Source: a virus
Length of the DNA: 40,402 nucleotides
Strand: one strand, 5' to 3'
Virus record (IMG/VR): IMGVR_UViG_3300042546_000377
Span: 1-40,402 of that record
Each line of letters begins with the position of its first letter. Within the stretch, counting starts at the first letter, position 1. Under the pieces are notes generated by a model, which searched no databases, had not been told where the DNA came from, and worked only from the letters and a program-made list of their open reading frames with translations. Below are positions 1,729 through 37,174 of the stretch, one piece after another. The translations under genes and the position numbers were made by a program.

Positions 1729-2273
1729 GCCGTCGTAAGCCGCCGCCGATCACGCTCGCCGGATCTCACCAGCAAGTTCTCATTGCTGGCGAGGCTGTCG
1801 ATCCGTTTGAGGGTGACAAGAAGATCACCGTCATGCGGAACGCCCGCGAGCATTCGATCAGCTACCTTCACCACCAGAAGGTCATCGACGACGATCAGCT
1901 CATCGCGGCGAATGAGTTCCGGCGCCGGTATGAGGCCGCAATGCTCGGAGCCTCACAGGCGATCGACTATAGCCGCATTCGTGTCGATGGCGGGGTAGTA
2001 GCTGAGCCTCTCACAGAACGCATGCAGGAGGCTCACAAGTGGCTTGCAGAGGCATCCTCGGTGCCGGGTGTAGGTCTCATCGGTTACGCGCTGCTCGTGA
2101 ACGTGTGCGGGGAGAGCCGCAGCCTGAAGGATGTGGCGTCTGGATGGAAAGGCGTCCACGCGCCCGGCAGCTCTCGGATGGCTGGATACATCTCGGCCAG
2201 GCTTTGCGAGGCGCTTGACGCTGTGAATGCGCATTTTGGCCTGATCGCTGTTGGCAAGACGAGGAGGCGTTGA
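1725..2273 (+). CDS. DUF6456-like phage protein (182 aa)
   Basis: Resembles the DUF6456 family of alphaproteobacterial proteins. The recognisable core is EFRRRYEAAMLGAS near residues 64-77, followed by a basic-acidic linker and a C-terminal domain (GYALLVNVCGESRSLKDVA, then SRMAGYISARLCEALDAVNAHFG) where the family has its helical bundle. The gene starts at a GTG overlapping the previous stop and is followed by a mini-HTH gene with a TGATG overlap and a GAGGAGG ribosome site. DUF6456 proteins are often associated with HTH regulators, so a DNA-binding or regulatory role is plausible but unproven. Confidence 0.7.
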   Translation: MSRRKPPPITLAGSHQQVLIAGEAVDPFEGDKKITVMRNAREHSISYLHHQKVIDDDQLIAANEFRRRYEAAMLGASQAIDYSRIRVDGGVVAEPLTERMQEAHKWLAEASSVPGVGLIGYALLVNVCGESRSLKDVASGWKGVHAPGSSRMAGYISARLCEALDAVNAHFGLIAVGKTRRR

Positions 2274-2470
2274 TGCGCCAAAGACCAAACATTTATCGGA
2301 GATTTTCCGACCCGTCCGCGCTGACAGATTACGAACAGCGTATCCTTGATCTGCGGCGGCAGGGCATGGACTGGAAACAAATCGCCGCCGCGATCGGCAA
2401 CGTAAATCCGAAATCGATCTCAATCCGATACAAAATCATCCAAGAGAAGCTGGCTGCTCAATGCGCATGA
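2273..2470 (+). CDS. Mini helix-turn-helix protein A (65 aa)
   Basis: Small sigma-region-4/LuxR-like HTH protein. After a basic N-terminus comes LTDYEQRILDLRRQGMDWKQ, IAAAIG and a recognition-helix-like NPKSISIRYKIIQEKLAAQ. It is paralogous to the protein at 3831-4016, sharing LT..E..., a central IA.A.. and an I.EKLA ending. ATG at 2273 overlaps the preceding TGA and has GAGGAGG upstream. It may act as an early transcription regulator; the target is unknown. Confidence 0.7.
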   Translation: MRQRPNIYRRFSDPSALTDYEQRILDLRRQGMDWKQIAAAIGNVNPKSISIRYKIIQEKLAAQCA

Positions 2471-2763
2471 ATAACTACGCATATCTCGCCGCAGGCATCG
2501 CGATCGGCGTGGCTGTGGTTTTCTACCAGGTAGACACGCCTCGCGCGGACAGATGCGAGACCTACAAAGTCGCGTCCAAGATTGCGACGGCCTATGTCCT
2601 GAAGCCGCCGGCGCAAGAGCCGACCGTGATCTACAAGGCCTGCCCGCAAACGACTGAAAATGTCGATCCAATTAACACGTCAGAAAAACGTGTCGAAGAA
2701 ACGCCAAAAAACGAACATGAGCCGCGTCGCCGTCATAGGCGCTGGCACAGGAGGTGGCGGTAA
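2461..2763 (+). CDS. Small membrane-anchored protein with basic tail (100 aa)
   Basis: Hypothetical protein with one N-terminal hydrophobic segment, YAYLAAGIAIGVAVVFYQV, and no signal-peptidase site, so probably anchored in the inner membrane. The middle holds two cysteines and a proline-rich stretch; the C-terminus is strongly basic (RRRHRRWHRRWR). The start overlaps the mini-HTH gene by about 10 bases; a second ATG lies two codons in. The next gene starts on its stop (TAATG). Function unknown. Confidence 0.6.
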   Translation: MRMNNYAYLAAGIAIGVAVVFYQVDTPRADRCETYKVASKIATAYVLKPPAQEPTVIYKACPQTTENVDPINTSEKRVEETPKNEHEPRRRHRRWHRRWR

Positions 2764-2993
2764 TGGGATTTTATCAAGACCAAAAAATTGAAGCGCTAAA
2801 AGCCCGCATCGCGGAACTTGAAGATGGGCTTTCGTCTGCTTGTGAATATGCCGAGAAATTTGAAGCCGCGCTGAAACGACTGCACGACGCCGCGCTGGAC
2901 ATAGACGTAAATGAAATGTCGTCTACTGAACGCGATTGGTGGCAAACAGAACTTCGCGCCGCACTGATGGCGTTGGGAGGGGAAAGTGACTGA
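2763..2993 (+). CDS. Small coiled-coil hypothetical protein (76 aa)
   Basis: Unrecognised protein with an N-terminal coiled coil (QKIEALKARIAELEDGL) and further helical segments to a C-terminal ALMALGG. ATG at 2763 overlaps the previous TAA and has GAGGTGG upstream; an in-frame GTG at 2754 is less likely. It ends just inside the next gene. This kind of short coiled-coil protein is common in early phage operons; no function can be assigned. Confidence 0.6.
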   Translation: MGFYQDQKIEALKARIAELEDGLSSACEYAEKFEAALKRLHDAALDIDVNEMSSTERDWWQTELRAALMALGGESD

Positions 2994-3429
2994 CGAACCT
3001 ACTATACGGATACGCGACGGGTCATTGGTGACGCGGGAAGAATACAACAGGATGGAATTGCAGGCCCAGAAGGCGAACGCCAACTGTCAAGTAAAGTCTG
3101 ACAGTTTGCCTGCCTACATCGATTTTATCCGCCAGCTTCGGTCCGGCAAAGAATGGTTGAACGACGGTAGGTGCTGTGGGCAGGTATGTAGTGACGGAGT
3201 GTGCTGCGCTCCGGCGTGTCTGTTTGGCGAGGCGCTGAAATACTTTCATAAGTCCGCTGACGCCATCGAAAAGCTGATGAAAGTGGTAAAACCATTTGCC
3301 GATGCCGCCGTTGATTTAGACGACGACGAATACGGGCATATTTGGGAACGCGCCGTAGCAATGAACATTGACTGCGACGACCTCCGCGCCGCCCGCGCCG
3401 CTTATCTGGGAGAGAAGCGTGAGAACTGA
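2986..3429 (+). CDS. Hypothetical early protein (147 aa)
   Basis: Unrecognised. GTG start at 2986 within the end of the previous gene, preceded by GGGAGGGGAAA. The centre holds a cysteine cluster (CCGQVCSDGVCCAPACLFG, seven cysteines within about 18 residues), which may bind metal. The C-terminal half is acidic (FADAAVDLDDDEYGHIW) and ends in ARAAYLGEK, encoded by a 28-bp sequence that is repeated 136 bases downstream. Function unknown. Confidence 0.6.
   Translation: MTDEPTIRIRDGSLVTREEYNRMELQAQKANANCQVKSDSLPAYIDFIRQLRSGKEWLNDGRCCGQVCSDGVCCAPACLFGEALKYFHKSADAIEKLMKVVKPFADAAVDLDDDEYGHIWERAVAMNIDCDDLRAARAAYLGEKREN
3389..3416 (+). repeat. 28-bp direct repeat, copy 1
   Basis: Perfect 28-bp match to 3525-3552, beginning CCGCCCGCGCCGCTTATC and ending GGGAGAGAA. 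It encodes ARAAYLGEK at the end of the 147-aa protein. The two copies lie in the same reading sense, 136 bp apart. Confidence 0.9.
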
Positions 3430-3562
3430 AAAATTCCTTGATGTTATGACTGGAATTCTCGTCGGGTGCATATTGACTACGTTCCTTTATGGGGCCGTAA
3501 CGCCTTGCGGTTGGTGCAGCATAACCGCCCGCGCCGCTTATCTGGGAGAGAAAGATGGCTGA
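3419..3562 (+). CDS. Small transmembrane protein with duplicated 3' end (47 aa)
   Basis: Short gene with a GTG start overlapping the previous gene. It encodes MRTEKFLDVMTGILVG followed by hydrophobic CILTTFLYGAV, then a cysteine-containing PCGWCS, and ends with ARAAYLGEKDG. The last part is encoded by the second copy of the 28-bp repeat also found at the end of the upstream gene. The repeat copy supplies the GGGAGAG ribosome site used by the next gene. Probably a small inner-membrane protein; function unknown. Confidence 0.45.
   Translation: MRTEKFLDVMTGILVGCILTTFLYGAVTPCGWCSITARAAYLGEKDG
3525..3552 (+). repeat. 28-bp direct repeat, copy 2
   Basis: Second perfect copy of the 28-bp repeat. 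It encodes the same ARAAYLGEK peptide at the end of the 47-aa gene and provides the ribosome site of the gene starting at 3555. This suggests duplication of a gene junction, or cargo inserted between duplicated ends. Confidence 0.9.
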
Positions 3563-3827
3563 GACGAAGGAAGAGCGTCGAGCCAGAAATCTCCGAATGC
3601 GGGAGAAGATGGCGCAGGATCCAGACTACGCCGCCCAGGTTCGCGCGCGGGTTAAGGCGGCCAAAGATCGATACGAGGCCAAGCTCAAAGCTGACACGCC
3701 AGAGGGCGCAGCACTGAGGGCCAGGCGTCAGATGGCGGTTGATAAGTTCAAGGCAGGGCAGCAGGCGCCAGCTCATCGCAAGCCTGGTCGGATTGTTTCT
3801 CTATGTGGTTGGAACGGGTGGGGCTGA
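3555..3827 (+). CDS. Basic hypothetical protein (90 aa)
   Basis: Highly charged, lysine/arginine-rich and probably helical (ETKEERRARNLRMREKM, RARVKAAKDRYEAKLKA), with a hydrophobic C-terminus (IVSLCGWNGWG). ATG at 3555 has GGGAGAG upstream, inside the direct repeat. The basic character suggests nucleic-acid binding; no family recognised. Confidence 0.6.
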   Translation: MAETKEERRARNLRMREKMAQDPDYAAQVRARVKAAKDRYEAKLKADTPEGAALRARRQMAVDKFKAGQQAPAHRKPGRIVSLCGWNGWG

Positions 3828-3830
3828 TCA

Positions 3831-4016
3831 ATGAGCGATTTAGTCAGAGTTAATTCCAAGCCTCCGGTTGATCAGCTGACGCCGGTCGAGACCAAGGTCT
3901 GGGAGATGTTCGAGGCCGGCAAAACGGTCGATGAGATCGCACAGGCGCTGAGCATGAAGGTCGTGTCCGTGCGCCGCCGGATGCCTGTGATCAAGGAGAA
4001 GCTCGCATGTCAGTAG
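3831..4016 (+). CDS. Mini helix-turn-helix protein B (61 aa)
   Basis: Paralogue of the mini-HTH protein at 2273-2470. It has LTPVETKVWEMFEAGKTVDE, then IAQALSMKVVSVRRRMPVIK with a LuxR/sigma-4-like recognition helix. GGGG lies upstream of the ATG at 3831. It overlaps the DUF3310 gene by 10 bases, and the DUF3310 ribosome site AAGGAG lies inside this gene. Probably a small transcription factor of the early operon. Confidence 0.7.
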   Translation: MSDLVRVNSKPPVDQLTPVETKVWEMFEAGKTVDEIAQALSMKVVSVRRRMPVIKEKLACQ

Positions 4017-4267
4017 AGGATATGGTCAACAGCCCGAAGCACTACATGGCAAGCCCGTCAGGCATCGAGGTCATCCAGCTCACCGAGCATATGAATTTTT
4101 GCCTGGGCAACGCGGTCAAATATATCATGCGCTGCGACCACAAGGGCCGGTCGATCGAGGATCTGCGGAAAGCTGTTTGGTATATCCAGCGCGAGATCCG
4201 GCGCCGGGAGTTAGCCGCGCAGGCGAACGCCAATCATATCAAGAAAAATGATCCCGTTGACCTCTAG
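4007..4267 (+). CDS. DUF3310 protein (86 aa)
   Basis: Matches the DUF3310 family (often labelled SaV-like or nucleotide-kinase-like) common in phages. The diagnostic pattern is present: VNSPKHY near the start, then GIEVIQLTEH, FCLGNAVKYIMR, and K.R..EDLRKAVWYIQREI. The family's biochemical activity is not settled. It has AAGGAG upstream of the ATG and overlaps both the previous gene and, convergently, the XRE gene on the other strand (57 bases). Confidence 0.85.
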   Translation: MSVEDMVNSPKHYMASPSGIEVIQLTEHMNFCLGNAVKYIMRCDHKGRSIEDLRKAVWYIQREIRRRELAAQANANHIKKNDPVDL

Positions 4268-5984: not shown

Positions 5985-7886
5985 ATGGCTGATGGCTATC
6001 GCCCTTTTGGGCTGCTCAACGACGCTGACGAGGAGGATCTCGCTCGTTATCTGCAGGCTGGCGGCGGTGGCGTTTCTCCGAATGCCGAGGCCTCTCCTGG
6101 TTACGATGCGATTGGTCGTGTCGCGTATGGCATGACTGGCGCCGGCGGCGTCCAGGACGCAGCTGGTTTGCTTGGCGGGCCGTCGCTGAAGGAGAACCTG
6201 GCGGCGGGGAATAATCTAGATGCGACGCTGCAGGCGGTGGGCATGGCTCCCGTTGTTGGCGGCGCGTTGAAGGGTCTGCTCGGCGGCGCGAAGCTGGCGA
6301 TGGCTGTGCCGGCGATGTCGAAGGCTGAGAAGCTGGCGGCGGCGCGGGCGAAGGTTCCTGAAGAGCTGTTGAAGGTCGGCGACGCGGCGAAAGCGAATGC
6401 TGCGACGTTGCGTGGCCGCACGGCGTATGGGCCTGAGACTGATCTGGTTTTCAACGGCAAGCAGCCGCATGAATTTACGCCCGAGGATTGGGGCGCGTTT
6501 GGACAGCAGCACGGCGTCCCGATGGGGCCGGCGACGAATGCGGAATTTGAGGCGAGCCTCGTCCCGTATAAGACCGCGTCGGGCAGGGAGTTTACGGTTC
6601 CTGGCGGCGTAGAAGACGCCAACAAGCCGATGACGTACTATGATCTGCTGCACCTGAAGGCGCAGGGGATCGACCCGAATGATCTAGATCCAGATCTGCA
6701 CCGGCAGCTGCATAATCGCATGGTGAATGCGGTGACGCCGGCGTATGGGCAGCTGGGCAAGGAAGGGATCTACAATCGCTTCCTGATGGGTCTGCTCAGC
6801 CCGAATAATCCGCTCACGCCGAATGAATTTGCTGTGGCGGCGACGATGGCGAAGGAGGGCCAAGGCGACATCGCGCGCATGGCCGGCATGACGCCCTGGT
6901 CGCTGGACGAGATGCCGCCGAGTTCTGCGCAGCGTCCTGTTCGCGATGAGATCTCAAAGGAGATCGCGTCGAAATATGGCCTCCAAGCCGGCAGCAAGGG
7001 CGGGTTGGGCGCATCAGGCTCTGTCGATTACACGCGCGTTTCTGATTTCGCGAAGATGATGGAAGAGCGGCCAGATTTCTTCGAGTTCCGAGGGCAGGGC
7101 GAGGGCGGTCGCGACAAGGCGTCGCAATGGCTCAACCACGTTTCTCGCATCGCCTCTCAGGTTCCTGGTCTGTCGGCGAAGACGGGGTCGTTTGGAGCTG
7201 TTTGGCAGAAGCCGAATGATGCGGCCATCTCGGCGATCGACCGGCACATGGCGACTGAATTTACCGGCCAGCTGTTCGAGAACGCAAAAGAGCAAAAAGC
7301 GTTTGAGAAAACGGTCGTCGATAAGTTCAACGAGGGCAAGCCTCGCAAAGACCGCATAAAGGGCTATGCTGATGTGGTTGACGCTCCTGGTGGACGCGGT
7401 TTCTTCGTTGACCAGGTTATGAATGTCGTGAACAAGCACGGCGGCGCCAAGTTCCGCAACGCCAAGGGCGACATAAATCCGAATGTCCCGGAAGAGATGC
7501 GGGGCATTGATTGGGTGCGCGAGCCGCAGGAGGTGACAAAGGTCTCTCCCGCTTATCTGCGCGCCCTGGAAGAGAACGACCGCATCGCCCGACAGAATAA
7601 CCAGGGTCTATTTGCTAACCAGTGGATGCTCTGGGATCGGATCCGCAATCGCGTCGAACCGCACGAGATCATGTATCCTGGTCTCGAAAAGGTTCCGCGC
7701 ATGAGCCAGGCGCAGCATCGCGCGGCTCTCGCTGAGCATAATAAGGCAGGCTATTTGACCTCGCCCAACCCGGTTCGCCCGGTAATCAACCCGTCGAGCC
7801 TGGCCTATTTCAGCCTCGGCGCCGGCGTCCCGCTGGGTCTGCTGTCGAGCCAGGCAGGCTCTGACGAGGGCGCGCCGACCTTTTAG
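5985..7886 (+). CDS. Large phage protein of unknown function (633 aa), possible virion/ejection protein
   Basis: Not recognised with certainty. The N-terminal ~130 residues are alanine/glycine-rich with amphipathic or weakly hydrophobic stretches (VGMAPVVGGALKGLLGGAKL), as in internal or ejected podovirus proteins. The middle is a soluble-looking domain with ordered motifs (FLMGLLSPNNPLTPNEFAVA, SQWLNHVSRIASQVPGLSAK). The C-terminus again has a hydrophobic SSLAYFSLGAGVPLGLLSS. ATG at 5985 is chosen; an in-frame GTG at 5949 is possible. Its ends resemble those of the 556-aa protein at 29943-31613, supporting a virion role. Its place between the terminase genes is unusual. Confidence 0.6.
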   Translation: MADGYRPFGLLNDADEEDLARYLQAGGGGVSPNAEASPGYDAIGRVAYGMTGAGGVQDAAGLLGGPSLKENLAAGNNLDATLQAVGMAPVVGGALKGLLGGAKLAMAVPAMSKAEKLAAARAKVPEELLKVGDAAKANAATLRGRTAYGPETDLVFNGKQPHEFTPEDWGAFGQQHGVPMGPATNAEFEASLVPYKTASGREFTVPGGVEDANKPMTYYDLLHLKAQGIDPNDLDPDLHRQLHNRMVNAVTPAYGQLGKEGIYNRFLMGLLSPNNPLTPNEFAVAATMAKEGQGDIARMAGMTPWSLDEMPPSSAQRPVRDEISKEIASKYGLQAGSKGGLGASGSVDYTRVSDFAKMMEERPDFFEFRGQGEGGRDKASQWLNHVSRIASQVPGLSAKTGSFGAVWQKPNDAAISAIDRHMATEFTGQLFENAKEQKAFEKTVVDKFNEGKPRKDRIKGYADVVDAPGGRGFFVDQVMNVVNKHGGAKFRNAKGDINPNVPEEMRGIDWVREPQEVTKVSPAYLRALEENDRIARQNNQGLFANQWMLWDRIRNRVEPHEIMYPGLEKVPRMSQAQHRAALAEHNKAGYLTSPNPVRPVINPSSLAYFSLGAGVPLGLLSSQAGSDEGAPTF

Positions 7887-8065
7887 TGAATAACCCGCTC
7901 ATAAGCGTCCACGAACCGCTGGGCCTTGCCATCGGTTTCTCCGACGAGCGAGCGGATCTCGTCGTCGATCGCCTCGTATTCTGGCGAACCCCAGGGATGC
8001 TTGGTCTGCTGATCAAGCAAAACGCGGATTTTCTCGCCTACGGCCTCAAGTTCTTCGTCGGTCAT
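7883..8065 (-). CDS. Reverse-strand moron, acidic 60-aa protein
   Basis: Small acidic protein (MTDEELEAVGEKIRVLLDQQ..., ETDGKAQRFVDAYERVIH) encoded against the packaging genes. It has an AGGAG ribosome site before the ATG and a near-consensus promoter directly upstream, the marks of an independently expressed moron. Its 3' end just overlaps the 633-aa gene. The protein is predicted helical, with no membrane or DNA-binding motif that I recognise. Expression during lysogeny, for example in defence, superinfection exclusion or host modification, is inference from the architecture only. Confidence 0.7.
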   Translation of the reverse strand: MTDEELEAVGEKIRVLLDQQTKHPWGSPEYEAIDDEIRSLVGETDGKAQRFVDAYERVIH

Positions 8066-8085
8066 ATCGGATCTCCTGACCCACT

Positions 8086-8115
8086 ATTGTATGACACCAA
8101 AGGATCACAGGTCAA
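8086..8115 (-). promoter_or_regulatory. Sigma-70-type promoter of the moron
   Basis: On the reverse strand TTGACC (8115-8110) and TACAAT (8091-8086) are separated by 18 bases. A start near 8079 would give a leader of about 14 bases carrying AGGAG before the ATG at 8065. It is one of the best promoter matches seen in the window. Confidence 0.75.
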
Positions 8116-8118
8116 GGA

Positions 8119-8190
8119 ATGACTGATCTCGCCGCCGCGCTCGACATCTTCATCGCGGCGTATCGCGACGAGCCGATAAATATGGTATAA
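8119..8190 (+). pseudogene. Relic of the original terminase large subunit 5' end (23 codons)
   Basis: Short frame encoding MTDLAAALDIFIAAYRDEP and ending in NMV and a stop. It parallels the first 20 residues of the present large terminase (MDISEAYATFVEAYRNNPVA), sharing A...F..AYR..P. This suggests that the homing HNH gene landed here, leaving the old start as a stub while a diverged 5' end now lies downstream of the HNH gene. It shares no long identical DNA stretch with the present start. Relict status is inferred from the peptide similarity. Confidence 0.6.
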
Positions 8191-8200
8191 AAAACGAAGC

Positions 8201-8259
8201 GACCGGGTGCTGGTAACACCCTGGCCGCCTCTGACCGCCAAACCCGTAGGAGGGGTTCG
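8201..8259 (+). ncRNA. Structured leader of the HNH gene
   Basis: Between the relic and the HNH gene GGGTG (8205-8209) pairs with CACCC (8217-8221), extended by CC/GG across a bulged T, with loop CTGGTAA. A second hairpin, AACCC (8241-8245) with GGGTT (8253-8257), places the AGGAG ribosome site in its loop. This may be a regulatory or homing-associated RNA leader. No group I intron core elements are present here. Confidence 0.45.
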
Positions 8260-8796
8260 ATGGCTAATAAGCTCAATATCACTGCTGATGCTCTTCGTTC
8301 AATACTGACATATGACCCGGCGACGGGTGATTTCTTTTGGAACGACAGACCGGCGACCGAGTTCAAGAACGATCGGCTGTATAAATCTTGGCGCGCAAGG
8401 TTTAGCGGGAAGCCGGCGGGGACAACTGACCCGCATGATTATGGCCGCATCAACATAGGCGGTAGGGTTTATTTCAAGCACCAGCTGGCGTGGCTCTACA
8501 TTTACGGAGAGCCGGCTGACGACGAAATTGATCACATAGATCAAAATCGCTCAAACAATAGGATTGAAAATCTTCGCCTTGCATCACGAAGCCAGAACGC
8601 CAGTAATGCTGGTATGCGCAAGCATAACAAGCTTGGCGTGAAGGGTGTTTGCATGGATATGGGATTTTACAGAGCGCAAGTAAAAGTCGACGGGAAACTT
8701 GTTTACAGCAAGCGTTTTCTGACGATCCAAGAAGCAAAAGAAGCCTACGATGCTGAAATCAAAAAGCATCACAAGGAATTTGCAAGGACGGATTAG
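8260..8796 (+). CDS. Homing HNH endonuclease with AP2-like domain (178 aa)
   Basis: Selfish DNA endonuclease. The N-terminus has the common LRSILTYDPATGDFFW start. The HNH core is HQLAWLYIYGEPADDEIDHI followed by D.NRSNNRIENLRLASRSQN, giving the H..., DHID and N...N residues. The C-terminal LGVKGVCMDMGFYRAQVKVD, with a later EAKEAY, is the AP2-like DNA-binding domain. AGGAGGGG lies upstream of the ATG. The stop shares bases with the GTG of the large terminase gene, so HNH and terminase are coupled. A relic of the old terminase start lies upstream, showing insertion into that gene. Confidence 0.9.
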   Translation: MANKLNITADALRSILTYDPATGDFFWNDRPATEFKNDRLYKSWRARFSGKPAGTTDPHDYGRINIGGRVYFKHQLAWLYIYGEPADDEIDHIDQNRSNNRIENLRLASRSQNASNAGMRKHNKLGVKGVCMDMGFYRAQVKVDGKLVYSKRFLTIQEAKEAYDAEIKKHHKEFARTD

Positions 8797-13889: not shown

Positions 13890-13946
13890 ATGGCTACCGT
13901 AACCCGTTACGATTACTCTTCGTCGATCCGCGAAGATCTTGAGGAT
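13890..13946 (+). CDS. Major capsid protein, exon 1 (19 codons)
   Basis: Encodes MATVTRYDYSSSIREDLED, the N-terminus typical of DUF5309/SU10-type capsid proteins, then meets an intron. Reading on without splicing gives a TGA two codons later. The exon ends at the T of GAGGAT, which pairs with the intron guide sequence, and ends exactly on a codon boundary. Confidence 0.88.
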
Positions 13947-14175
13947 TGATTTAGTCCTCGTAAAATCGGGTGAACTGCAGGAAACCCTGACCGGATAAGC
14001 CGAAGGCAATCTGCAGCCAAGCCGCCTGATGTAAAAGGCAGGCGGAAGGTTCAACGACTAGACGGTGACGAAAGAATAATCCGTCCACGAGCGCCCGACA
14101 GCGCAAGCTGATGAAATAGTCTGAGCTGCATGGAAACATGCAGAGGTCGGTCATAAACAGGCCGGCGATAACAAG
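13947..14175 (+). ncRNA. Group I intron in the major capsid gene (229 nt, no ORF)
   Basis: Self-splicing RNA candidate. P1: exon GAGGAT (13941-13946) pairs with GTCCTC (13954-13959), placing the conserved U-G pair at the 5' splice site. A P4-like pairing joins CTGCAG (13975-13980) and CTGCAG (14011-14016), followed by the typical AGCCAAG. P6 is CCGCCTG (14022-14028) with CAGGCGG (14039-14045). P7: GACTA (14056-14060), in the R-like GGTTCAACGACTAGAC, pairs with TAGTC (14117-14121), in the S-like GAAATAGTCTG. P8 is GACGG (14061-14065) with CCGTC (14081-14085). P9 is CTGCATG-GAAA-CATGCAG (14126-14143), with a GNRA loop. The terminal G is 14175; splicing joins LED to LIIYNISP in frame. The exact 3' site was chosen by protein continuity. 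Confidence 0.92.
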
Positions 14176-15120
14176 CTGATCATCTATAATATCTCGCCGA
14201 CCAAGACGGCGTTTATGAACAATGTTGGTCGCACGACTGCGGACAACACCTACCACGAATGGCAGACCGACATCCTCGCTGACGCCAACGGCTCGAACGC
14301 CGCTGTCGAAGGCGCTGATGCCACGGACACCGCTTTCGTGGCCCCGTCGCGTTGCGGCAATTACACCCAGATTTCGACGAAGACGCTCAACGTCTCCGGC
14401 ACGTCTGGCGCGGTTGACGCGGCTGGCATGAAGACGATTGAGGCTTACCTCATCGCCAAGCACGGCAAAGAGCTGAAGCGCGACATGGAGACGATCCTCC
14501 TGTCGAACCAGGCTGCGGTCGCTGGCGACGCCTCGACGGCTCGCAAGCTGGCCGGCTTCCCGACGTGGATCAAGACGACTGCTCAGACGCCTGCCGGCAA
14601 CGGCATCGTCGTCGGCACCGTCACTGGCCCGGCGTATTCGGGCGGCGCTTCGACGGTTTCGGGCGCTCCGACGACCGCCTGGACGCTGACGAGCGGCTCG
14701 GCTGCTTTCACGGAAACCAACCTGAAAGACGCCATCCGCAACATGTATCAGAAGGGTGGCGAACCCAAGATGATGCTCGTGTCGCCGGTCAATAAGGCCC
14801 GCGTCTCCGGCTTCGCTGGTCTCTCGCAGACGCGCGTTAATACCGAAGTCAAAAATGGTCAGGCGACCATTGTTGGCTCGGCTGACGTGTATCTGTCGGA
14901 TTTTGGTTCGCTGGACATCGTCCCGTCGCTGTTCTGCAATGGCGCGTTCGCGTATTTCGTCGATCCTGATTACGCCAAGGTCGCCTATCTGCGTCCGTTC
15001 CAGCGCACGGAACTGGCCCGCACGGGTGACGCGAAGCGTTCGCAGCTTCTCGCGGAATACACCCTGGTCGTGAATAGCCCCTACGCTCACGCGGTTGTGG
15101 CGAACATCACGAACAGCTAA
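14176..15120 (+). CDS. Major capsid protein, exon 2 (SU10/DUF5309-like; 333 aa in total)
   Basis: Main shell protein of the head. Exon 2 begins LIIYNISPTKTAFMNNVGRT followed by NTYHEWQTD, the hallmark region of DUF5309/SU10-type HK97-fold capsids. The centre has ISTKTLNVSGTSGAVDAAG, and the end has YLRPFQRTELARTGDAKRSQ and LLAEYTLVV, typical of the family C-terminus. Joined to exon 1 it gives a continuous 333-residue protein. The first ATG in this exon (14215) is inside the conserved domain and is not the true start. A terminator follows directly. Confidence 0.92.
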   Translation: MIIYNISPTKTAFMNNVGRTTADNTYHEWQTDILADANGSNAAVEGADATDTAFVAPSRCGNYTQISTKTLNVSGTSGAVDAAGMKTIEAYLIAKHGKELKRDMETILLSNQAAVAGDASTARKLAGFPTWIKTTAQTPAGNGIVVGTVTGPAYSGGASTVSGAPTTAWTLTSGSAAFTETNLKDAIRNMYQKGGEPKMMLVSPVNKARVSGFAGLSQTRVNTEVKNGQATIVGSADVYLSDFGSLDIVPSLFCNGAFAYFVDPDYAKVAYLRPFQRTELARTGDAKRSQLLAEYTLVVNSPYAHAVVANITNS

Positions 15121-15183: not shown

Positions 15184-15510
15184 ATGGCCGAAAATTACAG
15201 AAAGCTGGACGTCGAGAATTTCGACTATGACCCGGCAAATGGCGTTCGTCAGCGTCTCGTCATCGAGCAAGACGGCGGTGTCCATCTCGAAAGCACCCAG
15301 GATGTCAGCCACATCCTGAAGGCGGCGCACGAAAGCCGCATGGAACATTCCAAACACGAAAAGCTCGGCGACGACGTCAAAATCGCTTCTGTCCCGATGC
15401 TGATCCGAGCCGACCTGATGAAAAAGGGCATTTGGCAGGACAAAAAGCGCCTGTTCCAGTGGCTGATGAATGAAGGTCGGCCCTTCCTGACTAGGGATAT
15501 TTCGCTTTGA
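15184..15510 (+). CDS. Hypothetical protein downstream of capsid (108 aa)
   Basis: Unrecognised soluble protein with NFDYDPANGVRQRLVIEQDG near the start and a charged helical C-terminal half (LIRADLMKKGIWQDKKRLFQ). It lies right after the capsid terminator and was probably joined directly to the adaptor gene before an HNH gene was inserted after its stop. Possibly a head-completion protein by position. Confidence 0.65.
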   Translation: MAENYRKLDVENFDYDPANGVRQRLVIEQDGGVHLESTQDVSHILKAAHESRMEHSKHEKLGDDVKIASVPMLIRADLMKKGIWQDKKRLFQWLMNEGRPFLTRDISL

Positions 15511-15938
15511 CGACCTTGATCGACAAGCTGTTCGATAAGCATGTCACGCCAGAGCCTAATTCTGGATGCTGGCTGTGGGATGGGTCTTTAAACGCAGATG
15601 GTTACGGCAACGTCCGCAGAGGCAAAATAACGCATAAAGCCCATCGTTATGTGTATGAAAAATCACACGGGATGCTCGGCGATGGGATTTGTGTTTGTCA
15701 TAAGTGCGATGTTCCTAATTGTGTAAATCCAGATCATTTATTTGCAGGCACACATACCGAAAATATGCGTGATCGGGCAATTAAAGGACGCAATAACTGG
15801 ACAAAATTGAGCCTTGCTCAGGTGCAAGCCATCAAAGACGACGCAAGAATGCAAAAGTTAGTAGCAAGAGAATACGGTGTATCTCGTGCGCTTGTCTGCC
15901 TGATTAAATCAGGGAAGCTGCAAAGGGTTGGAGCATGA
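15507..15938 (+). CDS. Homing HNH endonuclease (143 aa)
   Basis: HNH_3-type endonuclease. It opens with the typical PEPNSGCWLWDG, then KAHRYVYEKSHGML, CVCHKCDVPNCVNPDHLFAG and N..D...KGRNN, giving the zinc/HNH core. The C-terminal KLSLAQVQAIKDDA and REYGVSRALVCLIKSGK form a small HTH for DNA recognition. It starts with TTG overlapping the upstream stop (TTGA) and ends ATGA with the adaptor gene, so it is wedged between two genes without disrupting either. It is more AT-rich than its neighbours. It could help mobilise the nearby ORF-less capsid intron; this is inference. Confidence 0.88.
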   Translation: MTTLIDKLFDKHVTPEPNSGCWLWDGSLNADGYGNVRRGKITHKAHRYVYEKSHGMLGDGICVCHKCDVPNCVNPDHLFAGTHTENMRDRAIKGRNNWTKLSLAQVQAIKDDARMQKLVAREYGVSRALVCLIKSGKLQRVGA

Positions 15939-25884: not shown

Positions 25885-27393
25885 ATGGCTAACGAATGGA
25901 TGTATATGCTTCCGGCGCTCACCAGCCAGAACAGCAACACGGCGACTAGCTCAAAGACCAACCAGGATCAGACCAGCGCGACAACGCAGAGTTCGTCCAC
26001 CAACGCGAACCAGACCGGGCAGAGCCAGGGCGGCAATTTTGGCCTATCGCTCAATCAAATCCCGCAATGGCTGGAAGATGCATCGCGAGCCGGCGTCGGC
26101 AGCGCTCAGAACTTGCTCAGCCAGCCCACGCAGGCCTATGGCGGCGATCTGACCGCTGGCCTCAACCAGTATCAGACGCAAGCTGGCAATATGTTCCAGA
26201 ATGCTGTCGATCAGTTCTCGCCGTATTTTGACCAGGCGAAATCGACGATCCAGTCAGGCCTGCAGGCGGCGCCGCAGATACAGGCTCAGTCGTTAAAAAA
26301 TGGCTTGTCGGGCATCTCCGACTACATGAACCCCTACATCCAAAACGTCGTCAACAGCGTCCAGGATTTTAGCCGGCAGAACCTTGATCAATCGCTCAAG
26401 CAGACCGCCGACCAGGCTATTGCCGCTAGGGCGTTTGGCGGCTCGCGTCACGGCGTCCAGGAAGGCGTCGCGACGGCTCAGAACAACCTGAACACCAACA
26501 ACCTGGTCGCCAATTTACTGAACAGCGGCTACGGCCAGGCGACGAATATGCTCAGCCAAGACGTGCAGAACAACCTGACGGCTCAGCAGGGCAATCAGTC
26601 GTCGTTCCAGAACTACCTGAACAATCTGCTCAGCGGCGGCGGCGCGATCGCCAATCTCGGCACGGCGGCGCAGAACTCGCTGAACACCGGCATTGGCAAT
26701 CTGCTGAACTTTGGCAACCTTGCCCAAGGGACTGAGCAGAATGCAAACACCGCCGCCTACAATGAGTGGATGCGCCAGCAGGGCGTCCCACTCCAGCTGC
26801 AGCAGCTCTACAACCAGACGCTCAGCGCAGCGCCGCACTCGACAGCTCAATCAAATGTCGGGAACCAGTATCAGAACACAAACCAGAACACGACCGGCAC
26901 ATCCACGGGACAGTCGAACACCAACTCCACGATGAGCGGCACGTCGTCCGGCAACTCAAACACGAACAGCTCTGGCTGGTCGATGTCTCCCGGCGGCCCG
27001 CAGCAGAGCAGCAATCCGATTATGACGGGCCTGGGCGGTCTGATGGGGATCGGCAGTCTGTTCGCTGCGCCGTCTGGCGGCATGAGCGCGGCGTCTGGGA
27101 TTGGATCGGCTCTGTCTGCTGGCTTGGGTTTCTTGTCGGACAAAAACATGAAAACCGACGTCAAGAAGCTCGGCAAGGATGAGGAAACCGGCCTCGACAT
27201 CTACAGCTATCGCTACAAGGGCGATCCGAAAACCTACCCGAAGGTTGTCGGCCCGATGGCCCAGGATATTGAGAAGCATTATCCCGGAGCCACGAAACGG
27301 CGCGGCGATCGCCTGACGGTGCATCCTGGCGCCATGAACTCACTGGCCGGCAAGTTCGCCGGAGGCGAGGCTTCTGCGCGGGGGCTGCTGTAA
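25885..27393 (+). CDS. Ejection/DNA-transfer-like protein with truncated S74-like C-terminus (502 aa)
   Basis: Serine/threonine/asparagine/glutamine-rich virion protein, of the kind often annotated as DNA transfer protein p32 in podoviruses. It has a Q/N-rich N-terminus, amphipathic helical stretches (MFQNAVDQFSPYFDQAKSTI) and a low-complexity tail (NTNQN, GTSTGQSNTNSTMSG). The C-terminal ~85 residues begin SDKNMKTDVKKLGKD and include YPKVVGPMAQDIEKHYPGA, a short S74-like domain without the usual closing coiled coil. An HNH gene starts on its stop. Confidence 0.7.
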   Translation: MANEWMYMLPALTSQNSNTATSSKTNQDQTSATTQSSSTNANQTGQSQGGNFGLSLNQIPQWLEDASRAGVGSAQNLLSQPTQAYGGDLTAGLNQYQTQAGNMFQNAVDQFSPYFDQAKSTIQSGLQAAPQIQAQSLKNGLSGISDYMNPYIQNVVNSVQDFSRQNLDQSLKQTADQAIAARAFGGSRHGVQEGVATAQNNLNTNNLVANLLNSGYGQATNMLSQDVQNNLTAQQGNQSSFQNYLNNLLSGGGAIANLGTAAQNSLNTGIGNLLNFGNLAQGTEQNANTAAYNEWMRQQGVPLQLQQLYNQTLSAAPHSTAQSNVGNQYQNTNQNTTGTSTGQSNTNSTMSGTSSGNSNTNSSGWSMSPGGPQQSSNPIMTGLGGLMGIGSLFAAPSGGMSAASGIGSALSAGLGFLSDKNMKTDVKKLGKDEETGLDIYSYRYKGDPKTYPKVVGPMAQDIEKHYPGATKRRGDRLTVHPGAMNSLAGKFAGGEASARGLL

Positions 27394-27863
27394 TGACGCC
27401 GGAAGACATAATGGCAGTATTCCCCGATCGCATATCGCCAGAGCCAAATAGTGGATGCTGGATATGGGACGCGGCTGTCGCGTCACACGGTTACGGAACA
27501 TACGGTAAGAACAAAACAGCGCACAGATATTCTTGCGAATTATCACATGGCACAATTCCGCATGGGATGATGGCGCTGCACAAATGCGACAACAAGCTGT
27601 GCGTAAATCCGCAACATATTTATATCGGAAGCAAGAAAGATAATTCCCTTGATGCTTATTCGCGCGGTCAAATGGATCATGTGAGGCATCCTGCTTGCGA
27701 AAAACATCCAATGGCTAAACTCAAGCCCGAGCATGTTGCAGAAATACGCTCGATTGTTGGAAGATTTAAGCGCGGACAGCGCTCGGAAATGGCTATCCGT
27801 TTTGGCGTATCACCGGCGACAATCAGTGACGTCAAGGCAGGCCTGTCATGGAGGACGGCATGA
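27393..27863 (+). CDS. Homing HNH endonuclease (156 aa)
   Basis: Same family as the HNH protein at 15507-15938: PEPNSGCWIWDA, AHRYSCELSHGTIP, ALHKCDNKLCVNPQHIYIG and a C-terminal HTH (SEMAIRFGVSPATISDVKAG). TAATG start overlap with the upstream gene and ATGA stop overlap with the lysozyme-like gene show insertion between two virion genes without loss. Visibly more AT-rich than the neighbours. Confidence 0.88.
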   Translation: MTPEDIMAVFPDRISPEPNSGCWIWDAAVASHGYGTYGKNKTAHRYSCELSHGTIPHGMMALHKCDNKLCVNPQHIYIGSKKDNSLDAYSRGQMDHVRHPACEKHPMAKLKPEHVAEIRSIVGRFKRGQRSEMAIRFGVSPATISDVKAGLSWRTA

Positions 27864-28516: not shown

Positions 28517-29943
28517 TGCCGCTTCCTCTTGATGAATTTTTCCGCCGCATAACCGGCCAGCCGATGGCTCTGCCTGGCGCCGTCGCCCCCACTGGCCCTG
28601 TTACCGCCCCGACGCCGACCACCGCCGCTGTCGCAGCGCCGACGTTGCGGGAGACGCAGCAGCAGGATTTCAACAACGCCGCGCTAAGCCGTATGGGCCA
28701 GCTCGGCATGATGCTTGTCGCCGCCGGCCAGCGCATGACGCCGCGTGAGCGCGCGACGATCCTGGCGCAGGCGCCGCAGTATATGGACGGCATCCAGAAC
28801 GACATGCAGATGGCGGCGCAGGCCCGTCTGATGAATACTCGCGCGCAGCAAGAGCAGGGCGATGTCGAACGCCGCAATGCTCTCTTTGAGCGCATGAAAT
28901 CCGAGCCTGGCTTCGCCGAGAAATTTGGCGTCACGCCGGAAGCGCTTGCGACCCTGTCGCCGTCCTCCCTGGAGCAGATTGTCGTCCACCGCGCGACGCA
29001 GGATCCGCTCGACCGCGCCGCCAAGCTCGCAGCGATCGCCTCCGCGTCCAAGCCAAAATTTGAGAAGGTCGGCACGAACCCGCTCGGCGAGGATCAATAT
29101 GGCTGGATCTACCCTGACGGGACGATCAAGCCTTATTCCGCCGGCGGCGGCAACGCCATGCCCTCCCTGGACGCTGTTGCGCAGCAGGCGAACGGCAAGA
29201 GCGGCAAAGACGCGCTTGAGGTCATCAAGAAATCATACCCGTCGCTTGCGTCTGAGGTCGAAGGCATTGTCAGCGGCCAGCAGCCGTTCCCGACCAGGAA
29301 GCTCGGCACACAGGCTGGCGCTGTCCTGAATAGCTTGGTCAGCATGGTTGACCCGTCCTACAACGCCGCGACGTTTGACGTGCGCAAAAAGGCGCAGCTG
29401 GATCAGGCGAGCAATCAGCCCAATTCCGCCGGCGGCATGCGCAAGAACGCCGAGGTTGGCCTGCGCCATTTCAAAGCGCTGATGGATTATTCCAACGCTC
29501 TCCCGCAGAACGACTACGGTTTTCTCTCCGGCGCCAAGAACTCTTACGACGTCTACGCAATGAAACGTAAGGCGGATGAGGGCGATCCGAATGCGATTGC
29601 CGCGATGAATTATCTGCAGACGATGGAGATCGGCGGCGACGAAATGGCGAAGGCTCTCGGCATTGCGTCAGAGGGTGGCCGCGAGAAGATCAAAGAGCTG
29701 TTTGATCCTGCGCTTGGCAAAGCCGCTGTCCAAGCTCGCATCCGCAACCAGATCCGCCTGCTGGGCGAGAAGATCGGCGTCCAGGATGAAGAGTGGCGGA
29801 ACACGATGGGGCCGACCTCGCAGTCGCTGATCAAGCCGGAGATCGCTGAGATCCTGAAGCTGGGCGAAGATCCTAAAGCGCAGCCCGCCAAGCCTCAGAA
29901 CAACCTCCCGCATGGCGTTAGATCAATTACAAGGATCAACTGA
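28516..29943 (+). CDS. Probable internal/ejection protein (475 aa)
   Basis: Proline/alanine-rich N-terminus, then long helical segments (RETQQQDFNNAALSRMGQLG; RATILAQAPQYMDGIQNDMQ) and a middle region with the EKVGTNPLGEDQYGWIYPDG motif seen in phage internal proteins. Starts on the previous stop (TAATG, GGAGGTGAATA upstream) and ends on the next ATG. Position after the virion lysozyme and before the 556-aa protein suggests membership of the ejected core. No catalytic motif seen. Confidence 0.65.
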   Translation: MPLPLDEFFRRITGQPMALPGAVAPTGPVTAPTPTTAAVAAPTLRETQQQDFNNAALSRMGQLGMMLVAAGQRMTPRERATILAQAPQYMDGIQNDMQMAAQARLMNTRAQQEQGDVERRNALFERMKSEPGFAEKFGVTPEALATLSPSSLEQIVVHRATQDPLDRAAKLAAIASASKPKFEKVGTNPLGEDQYGWIYPDGTIKPYSAGGGNAMPSLDAVAQQANGKSGKDALEVIKKSYPSLASEVEGIVSGQQPFPTRKLGTQAGAVLNSLVSMVDPSYNAATFDVRKKAQLDQASNQPNSAGGMRKNAEVGLRHFKALMDYSNALPQNDYGFLSGAKNSYDVYAMKRKADEGDPNAIAAMNYLQTMEIGGDEMAKALGIASEGGREKIKELFDPALGKAAVQARIRNQIRLLGEKIGVQDEEWRNTMGPTSQSLIKPEIAEILKLGEDPKAQPAKPQNNLPHGVRSITRIN

Positions 29944-31613
29944 TGCCCACATACGAAATCGTCGGGCCTGACGGCGGCACCTACCACATCGACGCCGATA
30001 GCGAAGATGCGGCTCTTTCCGCTTTTCATCCTGATGCAGGCTTTGTCCCTGGCATGATGCGCAAGTTCAAGCAGGGCGCTGCGCTCGGCTTTGGCGATGA
30101 GGCATCTGGCTTGCTCAAAGGGATCTTTGGCGGTCGCGGCGCAGTCGGCAACACGTTCGGCGAGCGATACACCAACGCGCGCGACTATGAGCGGCGCGCA
30201 CTGGATGCCGCAGATAAATCGACCGGCTGGTATGGCACTGGCGCCGAGGTCGTCGGATCCATCCCCGCGTCGATCGCCGGCGGCGAGGTATTCACCGGCC
30301 TGCGCGGTCTCATGGCCGGCAAAAAAGCGGTTGAGGCGGGTGTCCCGCTGCTCACCAGAGCTGGAGCATCATTGCCTGTGGCTACGGAGGGCGCTGGCGC
30401 GTCTTTGCCGGCTGTCGCTGGATCTGTCGCCCCCAGAGCTGCAGTCGCTCCTGCGGCTTCCAGAGCCAATTATGAGGCGCTGAAAAACAGCATGGGCGCG
30501 GGCGCTGTCACTGGCGCCGTCCAGGCTGCAGGCGACGCTGACACGATCGCCGAGATGCCGGATCAGATGCTGAAAGGCTCCCTGGTCGGCACGGTAGGCG
30601 GCGCAGCTGGTCATGCCCTCGGCGCCAGCGTCAGAAACGCAGCTGCTCTGACAAATGCTGCAGAGCGGGTCGCTCGCTCGCCATCGACGCAGAGCCTGAA
30701 GGATACGGCGCAGGCTTTTTACGATCGGTTTGAGAACTCCGGCGGTCGATACACGCCAGCCTTTGTCGGCGACATGCGCGACGCCCTGATGAAAAAGCTG
30801 CAGTCTGAGGGCTGGTCATCGTCCATCACATCTAAGCCGATCGGCGTGATGCGAGAGTTGGACAAGCTCAAGCAGATGCAGGCGATGGGTCTCGGTATGC
30901 CGACGCCGACACAGATCCAAAACGTCAGGAGCATGATCCAGAATATCCGCCGCGCCGACGACGACAACGAGGCGCGCTTTGGCTCAATGCTGATGGATGA
31001 GTTCGACAAGCTCCTCACCAACCCCGCCGACCACCATTTTGTCGGTGGAGACGGCAGGGTATCGGCGGCGAACCTGGCTGAAGGCAACAGGCACTGGAGA
31101 TCCTACTCCAAGGCTAACGAGCTGGACGACGCAATGTGGCGCGCACAGAACCGCGCCGGCTCGACCTATTCCGGCGGCAACATCAACAACGCCATGCGCC
31201 AAAACCTCCGCAGCGTATGGGAGAAAAACGGCACCCAGGCCTATACGCCTGACGAAAACGCGGCGATGGAGGTTGGCGTCAGAGGCAACACGGCAGAGAA
31301 CGCGGCGCGAAAGATCGGCAATTTTTCACCGCTGAAAGGGCCGGTATCGGCTCTCGCTCTGGGTTCAATCCTGCATGATTATCCTGAACTCGCGCTCGCC
31401 ATCACAGGCGTTACGCATGGCGCAAAAGTTCTCGGAGATCGACTGACGAGGCGCAACGTCAACGAGGCGATGCGCGTTGTTAGGGCAGGCGGAACCAGAA
31501 ACCCTGTTCTGCCTCCTCCGAATGCGATCCAGCGCGGCGCTGCTCGTGCGACGCAACCGTTCGGCGGCATAGCCGGAGCCGCTGCTGTTCGAGGTCTCCT
31601 CGACGAGCCGTAA
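29943..31613 (+). CDS. Probable internal/ejection protein (556 aa)
   Basis: N-terminal beta element (YEIVGPDGGTYHIDADSEDA), a common start for ejection proteins, then long hydrophobic alanine/glycine stretches (residues ~95-235, including GSLVGTVGGAAGHALGASVR) able to cross membranes, and a helical C-terminal part (MRQNLRSVWEKNGTQAYTPD). The overall plan resembles podovirus ejected proteins that form the DNA channel. The following terminator marks the end of the virion operon. Confidence 0.7.
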   Translation: MPTYEIVGPDGGTYHIDADSEDAALSAFHPDAGFVPGMMRKFKQGAALGFGDEASGLLKGIFGGRGAVGNTFGERYTNARDYERRALDAADKSTGWYGTGAEVVGSIPASIAGGEVFTGLRGLMAGKKAVEAGVPLLTRAGASLPVATEGAGASLPAVAGSVAPRAAVAPAASRANYEALKNSMGAGAVTGAVQAAGDADTIAEMPDQMLKGSLVGTVGGAAGHALGASVRNAAALTNAAERVARSPSTQSLKDTAQAFYDRFENSGGRYTPAFVGDMRDALMKKLQSEGWSSSITSKPIGVMRELDKLKQMQAMGLGMPTPTQIQNVRSMIQNIRRADDDNEARFGSMLMDEFDKLLTNPADHHFVGGDGRVSAANLAEGNRHWRSYSKANELDDAMWRAQNRAGSTYSGGNINNAMRQNLRSVWEKNGTQAYTPDENAAMEVGVRGNTAENAARKIGNFSPLKGPVSALALGSILHDYPELALAITGVTHGAKVLGDRLTRRNVNEAMRVVRAGGTRNPVLPPPNAIQRGAARATQPFGGIAGAAAVRGLLDEP

Positions 31614-34004: not shown

Positions 34005-35093
34005 TCAATCATTTGCAGCCTTATCCTGCTTGTCCTGTGGGATGATTGTGGGAGACGCGGCTGCGTCCAGAGCGGCGCGCACGTCCTCGGCGGCGAGGTG
34101 GGCGTAGCGCTGGGTCGTCGTGATCCGCTTGTGGCCGAGAGCCTTGCTCGCCGCCATCAGGTTGCCTGTCTTGCGCACGACACGAGAGGCGGTCGTGTGC
34201 CGGATGTCATGCAGGCGCAGATCGGTGACGCCGGAATTTTTCCTGGCTCTCCAATAAGCGGTGGAGAGGGTGTCGGGGCAGATCGGAACGCGGGAGCCGA
34301 GCGGCGCGTTGGCGAACTCATGGCGTTTGACGACATAGGTAAAGACGCGGGTAGGGTGATTGCCCAGCTCGCCCTGAAGGATCGCCATAGCGGCCTTTGG
34401 CAGCGGGCGCCGATCGACCGTCCCGCCCTTGCCGCGAACCGTCATGGTGGCGGTGTTCATGTCCACGTCGTTCCAGACCAGGTTGCAGGCCTCGGCGCGC
34501 CGGATGCCGGTGGAGAGCAAGAACTTGATAATTGGCAGAAAGTCTTGCCGGAAAGCGGCGAACAGGCGCTGCTCCTCGTCGGCTGACATCTCGCGGACGC
34601 GCTCAGCGTCCTCTTTCAGGAGATGCTCACGCCAGTTAATCCGCTTCACCGGCTGCTCAAGGAACTCGGCGTAACGCAGGATCGCGCGCATTGGCTCGGT
34701 GACCGAGCGATTGACGGTGCCGGCGGTAACATCCTCAGCGCGGCGCTTGGCGACGAGCTGGGCCACGACCTGGTTGTCGATCGTGGCAAGCGCTCTTTTC
34801 GAGCCGATCTGCATGTTAAGCCATTTCAAAAAACGCACGACATCCTTGTGGTCTTTGCGATGCTGGCCCTTATGCTCCCACCAGGTGGTTGCGGCCATGC
34901 CAAACGTCCACGGGATCGTCCCGTTCAGCTGTTTCAGATACTCAGATTTCTCGGCTTTGATTTCCGCAAGCCGCCTTTCGGCTTTCCCCCGCTCATTTTC
35001 ATGTGTAGTTCCGTGAAATCGATGACCTTGAAGCCGGAAGTCGAAATGCCAGACGTCTCCACGCTTGATGAGGCCTGTGATTTTGGCTGGCAT
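34005..35093 (-). CDS. int: Tyrosine integrase (362 aa)
   Basis: Site-specific recombinase for integration and excision. It has an N-terminal arm-binding domain (RGDVWHFDFRLQGHRFHGTT), a core-binding helical domain (about 60-160) and a catalytic domain with R198 in STGIRRAEACNL, H295-x-x-R298 in LHDIRHTTAS, H321 in ALGHKRITTT and nucleophile Y330 in QRYAHL. All active residues are present. It lies next to the tRNA-Gly-type att core. The 5' end overlaps the HTH gene by 160 bases. Confidence 0.93.
   Translation of the reverse strand: MPAKITGLIKRGDVWHFDFRLQGHRFHGTTHENERGKAERRLAEIKAEKSEYLKQLNGTIPWTFGMAATTWWEHKGQHRKDHKDVVRFLKWLNMQIGSKRALATIDNQVVAQLVAKRRAEDVTAGTVNRSVTEPMRAILRYAEFLEQPVKRINWREHLLKEDAERVREMSADEEQRLFAAFRQDFLPIIKFLLSTGIRRAEACNLVWNDVDMNTATMTVRGKGGTVDRRPLPKAAMAILQGELGNHPTRVFTYVVKRHEFANAPLGSRVPICPDTLSTAYWRARKNSGVTDLRLHDIRHTTASRVVRKTGNLMAASKALGHKRITTTQRYAHLAAEDVRAALDAAASPTIIPQDKQDKAAND
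34036..34053. promoter_or_regulatory. Candidate integrase arm-type sites, right arm
   Basis: Two direct TGTGGGA heptamers, 11 bases apart, inside the end of the integrase gene and on the opposite side of the att core from three more copies. Confidence 0.5.
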
Positions 35094-35629: not shown

Positions 35630-36003
35630 TCGTATAGGCTCCTCGGCGGCAGCTTTTGTTTTTCTATGCGCGCTTGTTTTTCAGCTCTCGGGAAGCCTCT
35701 GGACTGGATCTTTTTTCCGCTCGTCTCAATGCCAATCGCCCGCATTTTGATACGTTTCGCGCGAGCGATTGCCTTAACGTCCTCAATCGTTTTTTCTCTT
35801 GCGCAAGCCTCGTGGACTGGCCGGAGGTTTTCATCGACCTCATTCGTTCCGCCCAAGCCAAGCGGTCGCATGTGTTCGACGACCCAGCGCTTGCCCTTAA
35901 TCTCCATGCCACAAAGAGCGCACGTCCCTTTGTGCTTCTCGAATAGCTTGAGCCGCTGAGAAGGCGTAAGTCTCTTTCGTTCGGTCGTTCCGACATCAGT
36001 CAT
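35626..36003 (-). CDS. HNH nuclease, non-homing type (125 aa)
   Basis: HNH protein with a zinc-ribbon-like CALCG and a second cysteine in HEACAREK. Core KGTCALCGMEIKGKRWVVEH, then MRPLGLGGTNEVDENLRPVH gives the EH, N and H residues. The basic C-terminus (RAKRIKMRAIG, RAEKQARIEKQK) can bind DNA. Such proteins often occur as phage early or packaging-linked nucleases rather than mobile genes. ATGA overlaps on both sides. Confidence 0.8.
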   Translation of the reverse strand: MTDVGTTERKRLTPSQRLKLFEKHKGTCALCGMEIKGKRWVVEHMRPLGLGGTNEVDENLRPVHEACAREKTIEDVKAIARAKRIKMRAIGIETSGKKIQSRGFPRAEKQARIEKQKLPPRSLYE

Positions 36004-36491
36004 CTAGCCCTTGCGAACTCGCCATTATGCTTTGATGCAAAATCCACATAAGCTGCATGAGCTGCTTCTGCAGTTTCATATTGGCCTAGATGATAGTTCC
36101 GGCCTCTTATCCGTATTCGTCCAACCCATTTGTTGCGCCGCGTCTCATAAAATACGCCCTTGAACCCAGATTTATTTGCTTTCGACAATCTGGAATTTGC
36201 GCAATTTTGGGACTGCGTGCATGATCTTAAATTTGACCATCTATTGTCAGATCGATCGCCATTGGCATGGTCAACATTTCCAACCGGCGCTGTTCCGGTC
36301 ATGTAGATGAATGCCAATCTATGGGCGCCGTAAACTTTCCCATTAATCTTGATCGCGACATAACCGTTGTGTGTTGGCGTCCCGGCAGCGTCGCCAGATT
36401 TAATCTGACCACGTCTGTCAGTAAGCCACACAAACCGGCCCGCACCAGGATCGTAATAAAGTACGGCCTTTAGGCCTGTTTGAGTAATCAT
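36000..36491 (-). CDS. Homing HNH endonuclease with AP2-like domain (163 aa)
   Basis: Similar in plan to the HNH gene in front of the large terminase: LKAVLYYDPGAGRFVW, GAHRLAFIYMTGTAPVGNVD followed by HANGDRSDNRWSNLRSCTQS, and an AP2-like C-terminus (SGFKGVFYETRRNKWVGRIR...). ATGA overlaps at both ends show insertion between NinB and the other HNH gene. Selfish gene; likely target is this gene junction. Confidence 0.88.
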   Translation of the reverse strand: MITQTGLKAVLYYDPGAGRFVWLTDRRGQIKSGDAAGTPTHNGYVAIKINGKVYGAHRLAFIYMTGTAPVGNVDHANGDRSDNRWSNLRSCTQSQNCANSRLSKANKSGFKGVFYETRRNKWVGRIRIRGRNYHLGQYETAEAAHAAYVDFASKHNGEFARAR

Positions 36492-36913: not shown

Positions 36914-37174
36914 CTAAAATGGCACGGTGTCGTCCAGCTCCTGAGACAAAGGGCGGCTCGTCTGATGGCCCTCCGAGCGCTGTTTGGTTTTCGGCTTCAC
37001 GCGGAACGAGAGAAATGTGCCTCCGGTCTTGCTGCTTTTCTTGATCCAGGCGTCGCAGAAATAATCGGCGCCATTGGCGTCGTAGAACGAGCCGGTGTAA
37101 TCCGGGTGCTTGTCCTCGGTCTTGCGATCGTTTTTGAACAGAACGCCGGTGTTCGAATTGTCATAGTCGCTCAT
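36914..37174 (-). CDS. Possible phage single-strand-binding protein (86 aa)
   Basis: Small protein with a beta-rich OB-like N-terminal part (NTGVLFKNDRKTEDKHPDYT; ADYFCDAWIKKSSKTGGTFL) followed by a basic/polar linker and an acidic, SSB-style tip LDDTVPF. Similar tips (DDDIPF) bind partner proteins in bacterial SSB. It starts on the ERF stop. The DUF736-like OB fold is inferred from pattern; the SSB role from the tip and neighbours. Confidence 0.6.
   Translation of the reverse strand: MSDYDNSNTGVLFKNDRKTEDKHPDYTGSFYDANGADYFCDAWIKKSSKTGGTFLSFRVKPKTKQRSEGHQTSRPLSQELDDTVPF

Follow-up and report, generated by a model that had tools for sequence, protein, structure and literature searches.

A split capsid gene and the ends of its intron

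In this uncultured bacterial virus, the gene for the shell protein (the major capsid protein, SU10-type) is split by a small group I intron. We analysed a single stretch of 40,402 nt, hereafter the window, which is IMG/VR record IMGVR_UViG_3300042546_000377 (positions 1–40,402). Starting from ATG 13890, the capsid frame spans 19 codons (MATVTRYDYSSSIREDLED) before a TGA stop at 13947–13949; downstream of this stop it picks up in phase within the SU10_MCP domain (Pfam PF17236), as an earlier note made from the sequence alone had described. The intron opens with this in-frame UGA and closes ...ACAAGCUG, with the omega-G at 14178 (Table 1). The Rfam model Intron_gpI (RF00028), the covariance search proposed as a check in that note, scored 81 bits (E 3.3e-20) against a gathering cut-off of 50, well clear of noise, and an Rfam search of the 40-kb window gave no match besides the group I intron.

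Table 1 Features of the split capsid gene, its intron and the intron sites of the lineage
Feature	Position	Strand	Detail
Exon 1, major capsid gene	13890–13946	+	In-frame ORF, ends ...GAG GAU
Group I intron	13947–14178	+	ORF-less; RF00028 match, empty-site alleles, best-scoring join with T before and G at the end
Exon 2, major capsid gene	14179–15120	+	SU10_MCP, PF17236; stop included
P1	13940–13960	+	Exon UGAGGAU (13940–13946) with internal guide GUCCUCG (13954–13960); U·G (U13946 with G13954) at splice site
P10, possible	13947–13950	+	UGAU with 3' exon AUCA (14179–14182)
P3	13966–14098	+	13966–13972 with 14092–14098; 98% of cells paired, double changes in 4 pairs
P4	13975–13981/14010–14016	+	P4 and P5 together span 13975–14016; 100% paired, double changes in 4 pairs
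P5	13986–13988/14004–14006 and 13992–13994/14000–14002	+	Within P4
P6	14022–14045	+	14022–14028 with 14039–14045
P7, guanosine-binding helix	14056–14121	+	GACUA (14056–14060) with UAGUC (14117–14121); invariant in 8/8 aligned introns
P7.1	14061–14085	+	14061–14065 with 14081–14085, between P7 and P3; double changes in 3 pairs
P8	14099–14110	+	CAGC/GCUG
P9	14126–14143	+	CUGCAUG GAAA CAUGCAG; 100% paired, double changes in 6/7 pairs
P9.1	14146–14166	+	GUCGGUC/GGCCGGC; alignable in some relatives only
Site A	After codon 19		Site of the window intron
Site B	After codon 46, within the next codon		CAYGAGT before, GGCAG after
Site C	Near codon 109		TACCT before, CATCGCC after
Site D	Near codon 261		TACCT before, CAGTGAT after

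Intron-free relatives in IMG/VR have a capsid protein 95–98% identical to that of the window. Ten relatives (L005–L012, L014 and L023) have no insertion at site A, and there GAY runs straight into ATCAT(C/T) without an extra codon. An insertion is present in the window and in L003, L004, L013, L015, L016, L017, L025 and L047, and all site-A introns finish in CTG directly before ATC or ATT. Empty alleles and the common CTG end therefore place the intron at 13947–14178, giving 232 nt where the earlier note had counted 229 bases. Scored with an HMM of intron-free capsids, the join at 14178 reached 446.6 bits versus 440.3 for a join at 14175. When a 40.7-kb relative that lacks the intron (~87% identity across the capsid region) was aligned by blastn, the alignment broke exactly at 13945/14179. 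Of the splice sites first proposed, the 5' site after 13946 is thus upheld, whereas the 3' junction at 14175/14176 is ruled out by the empty alleles, the join score and the blastn break, the true site being 14178/14179, 3 nt downstream. The rejected junction (LED-LIIYNISP in place of LED-IIYNISP) would add a Leu that intron-free alleles lack, and by eye we found no P10 pairing of its 3' exon CUGA with the guide. A U as last exon base, facing a guide G, and G14178 as last intron base agree with group I introns and are backed by the empty alleles. Exon 1 ends in GAU in all nine site-A intron alleles and in GAC in 8 of 11 empty alleles; this fits the U requirement of the U·G pair, and co-transfer of the flank would look alike.

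Against PF17236, exon 2 alone scored 282.1 bits and the joined exons 292.7, level with the intron-free capsid of L006 (292.6). The joined product spans profile positions 7–292 of 292, the full length of an SU10-type capsid, and reads ...REDLED-IIYNISP, with the same N-terminus from exon 1 as intron-free alleles L005–L011. The continuous SU10-like capsid predicted from joining the exons is therefore recovered intact, with the junction corrected as above.

Elsewhere in the window, a 556-aa protein (29943–31613) matches phrog_21712, labelled major head protein, though the capsid gene lies elsewhere; the label is probably wrong and the family one of structural or ejection proteins. Integrase and ERF recombinase genes (34005–35093 and 37174–37842, both on the − strand) make a temperate lifestyle probable for this phage.

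Fold and covariation of the ribozyme

Helices P1, P3–P9, P7.1 and P9.1 can all be written with zero mismatches. P1 with its U·G pair, P6, P7 (GACTA/TAGTC), P8 and the GAAA-capped P9 had been recognized in the earlier note and were all found; to these we add P3, P4, P5, P7.1, P9.1 and a possible P10, the last of which is complementary in the window, weak in distant relatives, and consists of just 4 bp lying 3 nt off P1. The folding energy (z = −3.9) beat that of 200/200 shuffles.

We assessed covariation in eight distinct introns, four from site A and four from other capsid sites. The window-derived structure paired 88.9% of cells in this set, compared with 31–42% for slid versions. Both-side changes occurred in 32 of 66 pairs versus 15.4 in shuffles, counts that in so small and related a set are not probabilities, and with which the slide control and a four-row alignment agree. 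The intron thus has the P3–P8 and P4–P6 core and the pseudoknotted P7 of a group I intron, backed by covariation, and P7.1 supplies the extra helix between P7 and P3 that marks class IA. Judged from its sequence, it is a phage-type group I intron, class IA-like with P7.1. In the site-C intron of L017, two hairpins are visible by eye between P7 and P3. The covariance score, covariation, the U·G pair of P1, intron-free alleles and the restored protein together confirm that the major capsid gene contains a compact group I intron devoid of an ORF.

Introns at other sites and in other capsid genes

Within this lineage the same capsid gene has introns at four sites, A–D (Table 1), each present or absent between relatives. 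They occur in the combinations A+B (L013), A+D (L015 and L016), A+C (L017) and C+D (L048), and about half of the lineage contigs, picked by capsid sequence alone, bear an intron. An HNH ORF lies inside the site-A intron of L015, L016 and L025 and a LAGLIDADG ORF inside the site-B intron of L012, L013 and L018, the link between endonuclease and site being positional; the window intron (site A) and the L014 intron (site B) are ORF-less. Such a mix of ORF-plus and ORF-less introns is what endonuclease gain and loss usually produce. There is no ORF in the 232 nt of the window intron, hence no endonuclease of its own of the kind that defines a mobile intron.

The 40-kb phage has four free-standing HNH genes, at 8260–8796, 15507–15938, 27393–27863 (+) and 36000–36491 (−). 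The second of these, two genes past the capsid gene, is present or absent among relatives independently of the intron. We rejected collaborative homing through this gene: it is absent from the intron-bearing L004 and L017, and has homologues in the intron-free L005, L007 and L011. L048 (contig RFXM01000059.1), whose capsid is closely related to that of the window, was binned with a Methylocystaceae MAG, which hints at a methanotrophic alphaproteobacterial host; a binning effect could explain this placement.

Sites in SU10-type capsid genes at large were mapped by joining exons under the rule that U precedes and G ends the intron, and scoring the product with the capsid HMM. Insertions fell at ~10 profile positions (26, 28, 31, 34, 53, ~88, 109, 115–117, 244–251 and 297), with three mapped introns per gene in L075 and in L117. 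The SU10-type capsid gene of L144 seemingly lies in four exons, and that of L187 (about 2060–4080, − strand) seemingly in five, that is, with four inferred introns whose junctions are unrefined. From a core-only tree, in which 13 of 30 distinct introns were left out as their core was not found automatically, well-supported pairs alone were used. The introns at sites C and D of L048 are related (168 bits, clade support 0.999), both sitting behind ACCU facing guide GGGU; so are those at profile positions ~88 and 251 of L075 (252 bits), both behind GACU facing guide GGUC. These two same-gene pairs would fit guide-directed reverse splicing, with ectopic recombination as an alternative.

We also scanned for introns without regard to the host gene. 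A 20-nt core of the window intron recovered 14 IMG/VR stretches, 13 of them in SU10-type capsid genes, some just 35–55% identical; a looser core gave 63 matches, ~24 clearly in SU10-type capsid genes. A 16-nt P7 motif shared by phage introns recovered at least 119 loci, of which, among the matches listed, 19 interrupt SU10-type capsid genes. Among these matches, SU10_MCP was found in 17 of 118 downstream exons and, with SU10 removed, other capsid families matched 8, 4, 3, 3, 2 and 1 times (overlap possible); by comparison, DNA polymerases A and B had 6 matches between them, and gp32 had 3. These counts therefore make capsid genes ~21–33% of hosts and the commonest host class (25–38 of 118 exons), among the matches listed, for a short motif and as raw counts not scaled to gene abundance. 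Loci L133–L250 include group I introns in Phage_capsid_4, Phage_capsid_2, HK97-type, Gp10A-like, Gp13-like and Gp23 capsids.

Scanning with the motif of the C/D-type introns recovered just one further contig, L132. At another site of its SU10-type capsid gene (profile ~34) lies a 930-nt insert (7842–8771), which carries the C/D-type core motif and is large enough to hold an endonuclease. In L070 (2527–4353 of a 77-kb record), two adjacent weak group I matches of 41 and 39 bits, neither in a capsid gene, may form a twin arrangement. A search of named phages for close DNA relatives of the window intron turned up no more than short stretches of the core, in Alteromonas, Enterococcus and Bacillus phages.

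It is conceivable, if on balance somewhat doubtful, that major capsid genes, SU10 type foremost, are the preferred home of a group I intron lineage in uncultured phages, which would move by endonuclease homing and by guide-matched site-to-site transfer (reverse splicing or ectopic homing). Both RNA target and template may come from the very strong late transcription of the capsid gene.

Proposed splicing, alternatives and known systems

We hold it very likely that 13947–14178 is a phage-type group I intron that removes itself and belongs to a mobile population homing in and out of the capsid gene. This reading builds on the sequence, its covarying structure, the exact empty site, the presence/absence polymorphism and the endonuclease-bearing relatives; from these we infer that the intron splices in vivo, homes and moves between sites, and what the stop codon does. 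Two guanosine-initiated transesterifications would excise the intron from the capsid pre-mRNA and join 13946 to 14179, so that the spliced message would encode an SU10-type capsid protein of normal form, 332 aa long. Ribosomes on exon 1 would halt at the UGA, the first intron codon, short of the ribozyme core, which would therefore be free to fold. An in-frame stop lies within about the first 25 nt of all mapped introns, and the same reasoning has been given for phage introns (PMC3984707). The population would home in and out of the capsid gene, now and then shifting to a new site in the same gene.

An ORF that begins at 14215, together with the missing endonuclease of the window intron, could instead point to a dead remnant, leaving either a truncated 301-aa capsid started from the internal ATG or a pseudogene. 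However, the core is intact, scores on par with its relatives and has kept its pairing in P3, P4, P7 and P9, through compensatory changes in P3, P4 and P9. Moreover, exon 1 has kept its frame and agrees with intact alleles, and a start at 14215, with no evident Shine-Dalgarno-like stretch before it, would drop the conserved REDLED-IIYNISP block; we therefore consider decay highly improbable. An artefact of assembly, or a chimera, is a concern for any record derived from a metagenome, but is barely credible here given that the insertion is identical in L003 and L004 and 99.6% identical in L017, all independent contigs, and that diverged versions sit at the same base in L013, L047 and L015.

The intron might also be retained because it regulates capsid synthesis, setting its timing or holding it down, with splicing responding to translation or growth state. 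Capsid genes are unusually common as hosts among the matches listed, and the splicing of T4 introns keeps pace with translation (PMC3984707 and references therein). However, close relatives do without the intron, its insertion point differs among phages, and the pattern fits a mobile element gained and lost, so retention for this purpose seems unlikely. The tie of capsid production to RNA splicing drawn in the earlier note is a prediction from sequence, and control of capsid output by splicing is at most a possibility.

Capsid-gene introns are already known, and what is added here is their repeated occurrence at ~10 points in one capsid family; a literature search found no paper on introns in SU10-type capsids. 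In mycobacteriophage LittleE, splicing of a group I-like intron in the major capsid gene was proven by RT-PCR and N-terminal sequencing (PMC3706429). That intron likewise interrupts a virion major capsid gene, is absent from sister phages, and has U before it and G at its end, but it is 819 bp long with a LAGLIDADG-type ORF on the opposite strand, and occupies a single site in an HK97-type capsid (PMC3706429). Delta and Zeta crAss-like phages also have several group I introns per MCP gene, detected via endonuclease domains, but these gut phages are large and their capsid is of the crAss type (PMC7886860); the present phages are small and podovirus-like, with mostly ORF-less introns and base-exact empty sites. 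The T4 td, nrdB and nrdD introns resemble ours in being phage introns of group I that interrupt protein genes, and in their P7 extensions and early in-frame stop, but their hosts are nucleotide-metabolism or replication genes (PMC3984707). Jug phages (PMC12363816) and the ICP1 tape-measure gene (PMC10448857) also contain numerous short group I introns, with several in one gene and polymorphic endonucleases, and splicing there was observed in RNA; the host genes are others (terL, nrdD and tape measure).

The complete genome deposited for Phage C72C1 (OQ984150.1) has a group I intron of 81.8 bits (L002, 2769–3019) between two halves of the major head protein, which is annotated as two proteins, with three small opposite-strand ORFs annotated on the intron. 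Capsid genes are markers and are annotated automatically; such introns hide the gene start and yield false short capsids. The intron hosts given in a review are polymerases, ribonucleotide reductases and terminases, with capsid genes unmentioned (PMC3984707); here, capsid genes are the top host class among the matches listed, with one family struck at ~10 positions. The many alleles with no intron, with an intron or with an endonuclease, at sites exact to the base, form a natural data set on intron gain, loss and movement.
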